From the NCBI RefSeq assembly GCF_008831545.1, contig NZ_CP044523.1, forward strand, positions 1,302,001 to 1,366,000: a stretch of DNA of 64,000 bases, in the 5' to 3' direction. Under the pieces are notes generated by a model. That model made no database searches. It was given only the letters and a program-made list of their open reading frames with translations, and was not told the DNA's origin. This stretch comes from Halorussus halophilus (GTDB lineage Archaea; Halobacteriota; Halobacteria; Halobacteriales; Haladaptataceae). The position numbers were made by a program, and so were the translations under genes. Shown here in pieces: positions 25,506 through 28,836 of this stretch. Position 1 is the first letter of the stretch. Each line of letters begins with the position of its first letter.

Positions 25506-25560
25506 GCGGACGAGAACCGTGAGTCTTTCCCTCTCTCGGCTCTCACCGTCACTAATCAGC

Positions 25561-26157
25561 ATGCGCGAGGAAGCCCACTCAGTCTTACGAGAAGACCCCG
25601 TGATGGCCGAACTACTCGACCGCTACGACCCCTACTCGGAACGAAACTGGAACGAGTTCGAACGCCTCTGCGTGTCCATCATCAACCAACAACTCTCGAC
25701 AGCCAGTGCGGCGGCCGTGAGGGAACGAGTGTTCGACCTCCTCGACGGCGACGTGACGCCCGAGGCAATTCTGGCGGCGGACGACGAAGCACTCGGTGAT
25801 GCCGGTCTCTCAGGGATGAAAATCGAGTACATGCGGAACGCCGCACGTGCGTTCCAGACCGACGACTACACGAAAGCAGGATTGGCCGACCACTCCGACG
25901 AGGAAGTAATCGAACTACTCACCGAAATCAAAGGAATCGGCGAGTGGACTGCCAACATGTATCTGCTCTTCGTCTTGGAGCGCGAAGACGTGCTTCCGCT
26001 CGGCGACCTCGCGGTTCGCAAGGGTATCGAGCAACTGTACGGGACAGATTCCGGGGAACTGACTCGCGCAGAGATGCGCGAAATCGCCGAACACTGGCGA
26101 CCCTATCGGTCTGTGGCGACGAAGTACATCTGGGCGAGTTACGAGTCCGAAGACTGA
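25561..26157 (+). CDS. DNA-3-methyladenine glycosylase, HhH-GPD (AlkA-like)
   Basis: This is a 198-residue base-excision glycosylase. The helix-hairpin-helix LTEIKGIGEWTANMYLLF (about residues 120-137) is followed by the catalytic Asp in PLGDLAVRKG near residue 150. NEFERLCVSIINQQLS near residue 32 is the substrate-pocket helix typical of AlkA-type enzymes. It should remove alkylated purines from DNA. I start at ATG 25561 (MREEAHSVL), because the in-frame upstream segment is Ser/Leu-rich and not conserved in type. Confidence 0.9.
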   Translation: MREEAHSVLREDPVMAELLDRYDPYSERNWNEFERLCVSIINQQLSTASAAAVRERVFDLLDGDVTPEAILAADDEALGDAGLSGMKIEYMRNAARAFQTDDYTKAGLADHSDEEVIELLTEIKGIGEWTANMYLLFVLEREDVLPLGDLAVRKGIEQLYGTDSGELTRAEMREIAEHWRPYRSVATKYIWASYESED

Positions 26158-26186: not shown

Positions 26187-27557
26187 TTACTTCGATTCTT
26201 CCTCTTCTTCCTCTTCTAACGTCTCTTCTTTGTCGCTGTACTCTTCCTCGGTGCGGCGGCGCACGTCCACTTGGTAGTGTTTCAGGATGTCGCGGCCGAG
26301 CAGGACCGGATAGTCCATGTGACTGCGGTCTTCGATGCTCGCGGTGACGGTGTGACGGTTCCCGCCGACGCCGACCACCACGTCCACGACCGGCCGGGAC
26401 TTGCTCCCCTTCCGACTGCCGGACTTGACGCGGGTCAGACTCTTGATGGGGCCCGCGCCGATTTTCGCCGCGAGTTTCGTGTCGATGCTCGTCCGGGTCG
26501 CGCCCGTGTCGGACTTCGCCGTCGCCATCTCCGAGCCACTGGTCCCGCTGACCAGCACCTCTTCGGTGTAGCCGATGACGATTGGTTCGCTGGAGGGTGC
26601 GTCCTTCGGCATCGGTTTGCAGGCGGGCACGGAGTCGTCCAGCGACGCCGAGAGGTCTTCGACTTTCGCTTCGTCCACTGAGCCGCCAGCCTCCTCGATG
26701 GCGAGTTGCGCGATGTACGGGGCGGCACTCCGTCCCGTCGCCTTGAACAGTCCCTTGAATCCTGCAGTAGGGTTCACTTCGAGGACGTACCAACCGTCGT
26801 GGCCTTCGATGAGGTCCACGCCCGCGTAGTCGAGTCCGATGGTGTTGGCCGCGTCGCGTGCAATGTCGGCGACGTCTCTCGGAATCTTGTCGGTCATGTC
26901 CTCTACGTCCCCGCCGAGCGCAACGTTCGTCCGCCAGTCGTTCTCGGGGGCGTAGCGGTTCATCGCGCCGACGATGCGGTCGCCGACGACGTAGACGCGC
27001 AGGTCCCGGTGTGCGGTGTCGTCGCGCTCGATGAGTTCCTGCAAGAAGGCCATCCGGTCGCCGACGCGCGGATTGACCAGTTCGTCAGCACCGACCTTCC
27101 ACGTGCCGCCGCCGTGAGTGCCGATAGCAGTCTTGTAGACGGCTTCCTCGCCGAACTTGTCGCGGCCGTCGTTCAGTCGGTCGTTCGACAGCGCGAGCAG
27201 TGCGTCGGGCACGGGAATCCCGTCCTCGGCGAGCGCAGTCGCCGTCGAGAACTTGTGGATAGCCGTCATCACGGAACTCGGACTGTTCAACACTGGGAGC
27301 ACTTCGTCGTAGATTTTGGCGAGACCGAGCGACTCTGAGGGCTGTTCAGTGTTCGACAAGAGCAGACGATTGGCGACGAGGTCCACGTCGGGTTCTAGTT
27401 CGACGGTTCCGTCTTCGATGTTGACGGCCGTATTCTCTTCCCGAAGCCAGTGAGGTTCGTGTCCGAGGTCCTCTATCGCGTTGAGAATGGCTTTCGTTTC
27501 CTTGCTGTTGTGGAGACTCAGTACACCGATGCGCACACCAGAACCGTCGTCGCTCAT
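26187..27557 (-). CDS. RimK-type ATP-grasp glutamate ligase fused to RimB-like retropepsin domain
   Basis: This is a 456-residue two-part protein. Residues about 1-290 are a RimK-family ligase: an N-terminal domain (IGVLSLHNSKETKAI), then ATP-grasp with FGEEAVYKTAIGTHGGGTWK and GLDYAGVDLIEGHDGWYVLEVNPTAGFKGL. These enzymes add glutamate to proteins or cofactors. Residues about 330-430 are a retropepsin-like domain of the 'ATP-dependent zinc protease' (RimB) family, with SDTGATRTSI and the closing PVLLGRDIL. In bacteria these activities come from separate genes. The C-terminus is a run of glutamates. The start is ATG 27557. It is divergent from an aspartoacylase-family gene. Confidence 0.88.
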   Translation of the reverse strand: MSDDGSGVRIGVLSLHNSKETKAILNAIEDLGHEPHWLREENTAVNIEDGTVELEPDVDLVANRLLLSNTEQPSESLGLAKIYDEVLPVLNSPSSVMTAIHKFSTATALAEDGIPVPDALLALSNDRLNDGRDKFGEEAVYKTAIGTHGGGTWKVGADELVNPRVGDRMAFLQELIERDDTAHRDLRVYVVGDRIVGAMNRYAPENDWRTNVALGGDVEDMTDKIPRDVADIARDAANTIGLDYAGVDLIEGHDGWYVLEVNPTAGFKGLFKATGRSAAPYIAQLAIEEAGGSVDEAKVEDLSASLDDSVPACKPMPKDAPSSEPIVIGYTEEVLVSGTSGSEMATAKSDTGATRTSIDTKLAAKIGAGPIKSLTRVKSGSRKGSKSRPVVDVVVGVGGNRHTVTASIEDRSHMDYPVLLGRDILKHYQVDVRRRTEEEYSDKEETLEEEEEEESK

Positions 27558-27729
27558 ATACAACGAATATTGTTTCCGCTCCCATAAAAAGGGTCCACTG
27601 ATGGTTCCGCGCTGAGCGGGGCGGCCCCGAGAAGCGTAATCGACGTTACTCTAGGTGAGTCGCTGCTTACTCCCTTCGTCGGAGAATCACCGCAGAGCGA
27701 CCCGTCCGCCGAAACCCAACTGCCGCGCA

Positions 27730-27737
27730 TTTATATA
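27730..27737 (+). promoter_or_regulatory. TATA box for the 27760 gene
   Basis: TTTATATA lies 23-30 nt before ATG 27760, so the transcript is probably leaderless. This decides the start, because the frame is open 35 codons further upstream. Confidence 0.6.
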
Positions 27738-27759
27738 CCCCGCCGCCCGAGGGGAACGT

Positions 27760-28836
27760 ATGGCCGGGTCGGACGCTGAGGCGTTCACGTACAACGGCGG
27801 CATCGTCGAACCGGGCGAGACCCAGAACATCCGCTACGGTATCAGCGAGACGTATCTGGGCGACCCAGTTCGCATCCCCGTCACCATCGTCAACGGCGCG
27901 GAACCGGGTCCGACGGTGTTCCTCTCCGCGGCGGCCCACGGCGACGAACTGAACGGCATCGAAGTCGTCAGAGAAGTCGCCCACGAGTGGAACCACGACG
28001 ACCTCTGTGGAACCTTAGTCTGCATGCCGGTGCTGAACGTCCCTGGATTTCTGGCCCAAGAACGCTACCTCCCCATCTACGACCGCGACCTGAACCGGTC
28101 GTTCCCCGGACGCGCGGGTTCGACCAGCGCCAAGCGCATGGCCCACCAGATATTCCGCAACTTCATCGCACCGTGTGACCTCGGACTGGACTTTCACACT
28201 TCGACGCGCGGCCGGACGAACATGCTCCACGTTCGTGGGGACACCTCCGACCCCGAAGTCTCTCGACTCGCCAAGGCATTCGGGTCGAACGTCATCATCT
28301 CCTCGTCGGGACCATCGGGAACCTTGCGTCGAGAAGCCAGCGATTACGGCGTCCCGACGATTACCATCGAGATGGGCGAAGCCCATCGCTTCCAGCGACA
28401 GTTCATCGACCGCGGCTTGGAGGGCGTCAAGAGCGTTCTCGCAGAGTACGGTGTCCACCGAACGAACGCGGTTCGTTGGCCGGGCTGGCGCACCATCATC
28501 GACGAGGACATGGAGAAGACGTGGCTCCGGGCGGACACCGGTGGACTGGTCGAGATGCACTACGACCGAGGCTCGCTCGTCTACGAGGGAGACACAATCT
28601 GTACCATCACGAACCCGTTCAAGACCGACAGCGACAGCGTGGAAGCACCCTTCACTGGACTTCTCGTCGGGGTGCTTGAGAACCCGGTCGTCTATCCGGG
28701 GAATCCACTCTGTCACATGGTCGAACTGGAGGCGGACACGCGGCGCGCACTCAAACGTGACCGGGCACAGAGCGACGACCCGAACGGGGACGCGGCACCG
28801 CCACCGGAGCATACGTTGCCGCCCGAGAGTCGGTGA
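27760..28836 (+). CDS. Succinylglutamate desuccinylase/aspartoacylase-family deacylase
   Basis: This is a 358-residue M14-like zinc enzyme. Zinc ligands are in AAAHGDELNG (His and Glu, near residue 53) and GLDFHTSTRGR (His, near residue 145). RDLNRSFPG carries the substrate-binding Asn-Arg pair. TIEMGE near residue 205 has the catalytic glutamate. Members remove acyl groups from N-acyl amino acids. It is divergent from the RimK-RimB fusion gene. A deacylase of this family near rimK is also known in bacteria, so the two may share a glutamate-related substrate. The tail after residue 325 is disordered. Confidence 0.88.
   Translation: MAGSDAEAFTYNGGIVEPGETQNIRYGISETYLGDPVRIPVTIVNGAEPGPTVFLSAAAHGDELNGIEVVREVAHEWNHDDLCGTLVCMPVLNVPGFLAQERYLPIYDRDLNRSFPGRAGSTSAKRMAHQIFRNFIAPCDLGLDFHTSTRGRTNMLHVRGDTSDPEVSRLAKAFGSNVIISSSGPSGTLRREASDYGVPTITIEMGEAHRFQRQFIDRGLEGVKSVLAEYGVHRTNAVRWPGWRTIIDEDMEKTWLRADTGGLVEMHYDRGSLVYEGDTICTITNPFKTDSDSVEAPFTGLLVGVLENPVVYPGNPLCHMVELEADTRRALKRDRAQSDDPNGDAAPPPEHTLPPESR

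Follow-up and report, generated by a model that had tools for sequence, protein, structure and literature searches.

A RimK-family ligase fused to a RimB-like retropepsin is widely conserved in Halobacteria and usually ends in glutamate

What might a single protein do that joins a RimK-family ATP-grasp ligase to a RimB-like retropepsin, carries a run of encoded glutamates near its C-terminus and lies beside a divergent aspartoacylase-family gene? We met this arrangement in a 64,000-nucleotide stretch of the genome of the haloarchaeon Halorussus halophilus (NZ_CP044523.1, positions 1,302,001 to 1,366,000), which we call the window and to which all coordinates refer. The reading frame of the fusion, named K-B after its ligase (K) and retropepsin (B) domains, is open over 26187-27563 on the minus strand with TTG as the first in-frame start; we took the start at the ATG at 27557 (coding 26190-27557) in agreement with orthologs, which gives a protein of 456 aa. 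The locus comprises the following features:

26187..27557 (stop included), minus strand: K-B fusion gene, RimK-family ligase / RimB-like retropepsin; 456 aa, ATG at 27557
26718..27530, minus strand: ATP-grasp ligase (K) domain, aa 10-280; profile matches and fold
26250..26582, minus strand: RimB-like retropepsin (B) domain, aa 326-436; profile match, modelled fold and charge
26502..26510, minus strand: predicted catalytic Asp-Thr-Gly, aa 350-352; D[TS]G in all aligned orthologs
26190..26249, minus strand: disordered acidic tail, aa 437-456; pLDDT <50 at 439-450
26196..26216, minus strand: seven consecutive Glu codons, aa 448-454, then Ser-Lys-stop; orthologs end in Glu instead
27558..27759, no strand: divergent intergenic region between K-B and AspA, 202 bp; arrangement kept in most haloarchaeal families
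27760..28836, plus strand: AspA/AstE-family zinc hydrolase, 358 aa, divergent partner; PF24827 match and zinc-site motifs

A first-pass annotation of the sequence had described the protein as a RimK ligase fused to a RimB-like protease domain, and profile and structure comparisons bear out this architecture. The K domain matches PF08443 (RimK) over aa 101-282 (E 1.8e-23, 83.5 bits, cut-off 21) and scores 154.1 bits against TIGR00768, above the cut-off of 143.4. Both motifs quoted for the protease, SDTGATRTSI and PVLLGRDIL, are present, and the suggested domain search of the C-terminal region against the RimB family gave a match to PF05618 at aa 371-435 (E 5.4e-9, 36.5 bits, cut-off 27) that covers only positions 67-132 of the 138 in the profile. 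An AlphaFold model of the fusion (pLDDT 85.9 overall) consists of two confident domains and a disordered tail. The closest folds to the whole model are LysX/ArgX and RimK, with LysX/ArgX bound to LysW best by E-value (5k2m; 3vpb ranks fourth). The C-terminal domain modelled alone (pLDDT 82) ranks RloA2 (9g59), Lpg0085 (2pma) and RloA (9g58) first, followed by the HIV and Ddi1 proteases, and its Foldseek probability of 1.00 against 9g59, 2pma and the HIV and Ddi1 proteases identifies a retropepsin fold. Across 52 aligned orthologs, the ligase residues D248, E260, N262, R64 and R187 and the protease residues D350-x-G352 are invariant. The idea that the protease aspartate is lost in some lineages was rejected, since the residues there are DSG, still a valid motif; K-B proteins with DSG replacing DTG occur at L041, L117 and L119, where AspA was not found nearby.

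The B domain is also distinctive in its charge: across 109 aa its net charge is +5, and +6 for the flap region, whereas the rest of the protein is acidic (K domain, -0.09 per residue). Its closest solved structures are the Pseudomonas RloA/RimB retropepsins, which are alike in D[TS]G and in a basic substrate channel and in which Lys and Arg hold poly-Glu (PMC12239564), so that a basic B domain is as expected for a poly-Glu channel. The likeness has limits in that RloA is secreted, and the GWREWV-type segment at the start of RimB is missing from the B domain of K-B.

The ligase is more distant from its bacterial namesake. The first-pass annotation had invoked the RimK/RimB pair that acts on ribosomal protein S6, and S6 was rejected as the target in the window's genome because a search there did not find bS6 (PF01250) even at E<=10, with matches in control bacteria. 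Against the PRK10446 model of S6--L-glutamate ligase, the K domain scores 69.2 bits, far below the cut-off of 331; its best equivalog scores are those of MptN (132 bits, cut-off 350) and LysX (118 bits, cut-off 275.6). In a tree whose long branches leave the deeper placement unsure, the haloarchaeal K domains form their own clade (support 99/99) and do not group with RimK proper, which forms a separate clade of bacterial and Methanosarcina sequences (100/99); a LysX/ArgX-like clade and a third haloarchaeal group also stand apart. At the position of Arg8, with which Pseudomonas RimK contacts glutamate, the K domains show no conservation, a point against the self-glutamylation proposed below. 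The window's genome encodes one more RimK-family protein, its third (L160, G000:C1:105737-106297), which stays below every equivalog cut-off; relatives of it were found on checking four other haloarchaeal genomes.

These relationships could suggest a small-molecule substrate, such as cofactor F420, a pterin or some other metabolite, to which the ligase would attach an amino acid in the manner of MptN/CofF, with the protease-like domain serving only to regulate the ligase and AspA removing the group. Such a role would fit the position of the K domain outside RimK proper and the MptN and LysX scores, both far over that of the S6-ligase model; all three scores, however, lie far under their cut-offs, it is not obvious what a retropepsin of the RimB type, with its D[TS]G conserved and its channel basic, would do to a small molecule, and the conserved C-terminal Glu described below would be left unexplained. 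We regard this reading as quite unlikely.

The fusion is nearly universal in its class: a search for PF05618 was positive in 350 of the 391 Halobacteria genomes, the positives span 79 of 86 genera, Haloferax among them, and nearly all haloarchaeal copies sampled lie within K-B (the copy at L103 is frameshifted). In the rest of the phylum outside Halobacteria, searched with Methanosarcina acetivorans as positive control, PF05618 is mainly a stand-alone protein of Methanosarcina-type genomes (family f13), and its full-length form sits there in a row of genes B-K-AspA that recurs in Salinivibrio and Acaryochloris, which agrees with the annotated claim that this neighbourhood also exists in bacteria. 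Such RimB-RimK-AspA operons contain the same three protein families as the haloarchaeal module, but encode them in three individual genes that run in one direction as B, K, AspA, whereas in haloarchaea K and B are fused, AspA is divergent and the K domains belong to a different clade. A second, divergent stand-alone PF05618 protein of about 180-200 aa (profile positions 25-138), without a RimK-like neighbour, is carried by f13 and by further families within the phylum (L140-L151), and genome G427 has a second RimB-RimK pair (L133) with no AspA gene after it.

The view that RimK and RimB are separate in bacteria needs correction, as RimB-RimK hybrids with the order B-K are already published for bacteria, and we also saw them, B before K, in Thioclava and Aureibacter; directly after the Aureibacter gene lie three small DUF1843 ORFs and then a radical SAM gene (L155:6556-7269). 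The hybrid DP2392 of Desulfotalea psychrophila, like K-B, combines a RimB-like retropepsin and a RimK-family ligase in one chain; its poly-Glu protease activity has been demonstrated and its host has rpsF, and archaea are not mentioned in that study (Little et al. 2025, PMC11957791). Haloarchaea have the reverse order, K before B, and the two bacterial hybrids compared have no conserved C-terminal Glu, unlike K-B. Since the domain order is reversed and the K clade is separate, these comparisons point to an independent fusion. K-B is thus a real, widely conserved and unusual variant of known RimK/RimB systems, and what is new is its near-universality in Halobacteria, the gain and loss of AspA along with it, and its conserved C-terminal Glu. 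A search of the literature on haloarchaeal RimK/RimB returned no paper and no reported function for the fusion gene; if RimK-linked retropepsin operons were mentioned before, it was most probably by Iyer et al. in 2009.

The divergent neighbour, annotated as an aspartoacylase-family gene, is indeed a member of AstE_AspA (PF24827; E 4.8e-49, 166.9 bits, cut-off 25) and has the motifs HGDE...DFHT...EMGEAHRF in common with the bacterial operon members. Its identification as the ectoine enzyme DoeB was rejected (96.7 bits vs a cut-off of 402.7). Of 74 loci, 61 have AspA divergent from K-B, and 46 have the two genes no more than 500 bp apart; in family f4, the two genes are separated by about 3 kb. 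In a sample of 47 genomes picked by presence or absence of PF05618, a close AspA (at least 59% identity) accompanied the fusion in 27 of 27 genomes, and 17 of the 20 genomes lacking the fusion held only a distant homolog (31-36%), while in the remaining three (G110, G168 and G184; L188, L189 and L190) a close intact AspA adjoins a decayed K-B remnant. With 33-65 aa aligned, these remnants were read as recent losses; in genus g29, K-B and close AspA are both missing from five of five sampled genomes (G050, G079, G089, G140, G145), a lineage-wide loss. Because AspA is gained and lost together with K-B, the link between them appears to be functional, not merely positional, and AspA is a conserved partner in haloarchaea, Methanosarcina-type genomes and bacteria alike. 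On the other side of K-B lies a convergent HhH-GPD DNA glycosylase gene (25519-26157, plus strand) that is often nearby in other haloarchaea.

The tail, described at first as seven glutamates broken once, is an uninterrupted run in the window's copy (aa 448-454) with Ser-Lys after it and a further EE two residues upstream. Part of the expectation that orthologs share a poly-Glu tail had to be given up: in 96 distinct orthologs, the longest run of Glu within the final 35 residues spans 1 to 7 and does not exceed 3 in half of them, the window's E7 being the extreme, so that run length was rejected as a conserved feature. The part that stood is a C-terminal Glu, found in 90 of the 96 (78 end in -EE, 11 in -LE, 1 in -VE) and in 58 of 59 members of a genus-spread subset, though not in the window's own copy; the six exceptions are this protein, three Haladaptatus orthologs that end Glu-Gly after runs of 5-6 Glu, and two more without a Glu end. 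Tail length after the GRD motif ranges from 11 to 33 aa, and pairwise identity falls from 0.88 at position -1 and 0.74 at -2 to 0.14 at -3, a collapse that is not explained by common descent alone, bearing in mind that the 96 orthologs are not independent and were partly picked by PF05618 score. The conserved feature of the tail is its last residue (Glu or Glu-Glu) after a hypervariable linker and not the E7 run, which goes beyond the first-pass annotation. In a second K-B group, about 50% identical (L078, L102, L103, L131, L091, L130, L021, L024, L030, L032), the short tails are still Glu-ended with one exception that ends in Ala; several members come with an AspA gene of their own next to them, and haloarchaeal plasmids carry further copies of this kind.

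Could the acidic tail be a halophilic surface adaptation only, its terminal Glu a matter of chance or inheritance? Haloarchaeal proteins are acidic and about 13% of them end in Glu, but Glu-Glu closes 78 of 96 orthologs against 1.8% of acidic predicted proteins (24 of 1,352) in 1.54 Mb of another haloarchaeal genome, G007, and the drop at position -3 is likewise not what this explanation predicts. Neither do partner and neighbour families of the same genomes have such an end: among 453 acidic ORFs from the K-B loci, 80 have a terminal Glu (Glu-Glu in 8), as do 6 of 61 AspA orthologs (Glu-Glu in 1) and 9 of 52 HhH glycosylase orthologs (Glu-Glu in none), and no other gene family recovered from the neighbourhoods exceeded 6% for Glu-Glu. 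We consider adaptation alone very improbable. The window's Glu run itself lies beyond chance, given that only 1 of the 1,567 genes predicted in those 1.54 Mb of G007 has at least 6 consecutive Glu in its last 35 residues; the fusion ortholog of that genome has six. We also rejected the terminal GAG-GAG as a Shine-Dalgarno sequence of a downstream gene, because a co-directional start follows within 30 nt in at most 18 of the 96 cases, and these few ORFs are mostly basic and look spurious.

The proposed resemblance of the tail to a RimK acceptor or product gains strength from the ortholog ends. One ortholog (L090) ends exactly in GDSEE, the end of S6 in E. coli (DNADE in P. fluorescens; PMC11957791), and no such Glu end was found on bacterial or Methanosarcina RimK or RimBK. 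P. fluorescens RimB requires about six contiguous Glu for cutting (PMC11957791), and so, speculatively, a cut inside the E7 of the window's own protein could expose a Glu end.

We tentatively propose that K-B is a core haloarchaeal poly-glutamate writer/eraser with its own S6-like acceptor at the C-terminus. In its full form, which we hold with somewhat more reserve, the proposal is that of a single-chain, self-priming poly-alpha-glutamate enzyme whose chain is grown on its own encoded Glu-Glu C-terminus and trimmed by its own retropepsin; such an enzyme would be shared by an archaeal class in which the S6 substrate is missing, and a dedicated AspA-type hydrolase would be inherited along with it. 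The ATP-grasp domain would use ATP to ligate glutamates singly to a C-terminal glutamate, with the enzyme's own flexible C-terminus, in the same chain or between subunits, as the favoured acceptor; the basic retropepsin domain would, as a dimer, trim the poly-glutamate chains; and the AspA-like zinc hydrolase would act on the same product, for example by stripping terminal residues from released glutamate peptides. We infer glutamate as the added residue, the tail as acceptor and the role of AspA, and likewise any physiological purpose, which may be a regulated polyanion, a glutamate store or self-regulation. RimK and LysX/ArgX modify the C-termini of carriers, and self-glutamylation with self-trimming is favoured here because bS6 was not found, the end of the fusion is S6-like and the B domain is basic. 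Bacterial RimB stimulates RimK (PMC11957791), which would give a reason for fusing both. Against a self-acceptor stand the Ser-Lys end of the window's protein, which would first need a cut inside E7, the score of the K domain far under the S6-ligase model (69 of 331 bits) and the Glu-Gly ends of the three Haladaptatus orthologs; the conserved Glu might serve in docking or autoinhibition instead.

The main rival, somewhat less likely in our view, is glutamylation of another protein in trans, as by RimK on S6, in which case the protein's own Glu-Glu end would occupy the site of the ligase or the protease as a pseudo-substrate or for regulation. RpsF is the in-trans target of bacterial RimK/RimB (PMC11957791), and the B-K-AspA operons of Methanosarcina-type genomes indicate that the module can use other acceptors, which must exist there since it has no Glu tail. 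Other haloarchaeal proteins, 24 of them in the 1.54 Mb of G007, also have a Glu-Glu end, yet bS6 was not found in the window's genome, the gene families recovered from the neighbourhoods include no conserved Glu-ending partner, and a pseudo-substrate need not be exactly terminal. Least likely of all is that the terminal Glu serves as an amino-group carrier like LysW, on which an amino acid would be loaded, modified and then freed by AspA or the protease. LysX/ArgX, which load the C-terminal Glu of LysW, are the closest folds by E-value, and the partner of K-B is a deacylase-family enzyme. The LysW system, by contrast, has a separate carrier and no protease domain, K-B stays under the LysX cut-off (118 vs 275.6), a LysX/ArgX-like gene, with an argC-like gene next to it, already exists in the window's genome, the module comes without biosynthetic genes, and the RimB domain points to poly-Glu.

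About nine haloarchaeal genomes in ten carry the module. We know of no other RimK-family enzyme that carries its own substrate, so that K-B, if its tail is the acceptor, would be the first; this would explain the role of the system in cells without bS6 and predicts +129 Da steps on one known C-terminus. It would also link AspA-family hydrolases to poly-glutamate metabolism.
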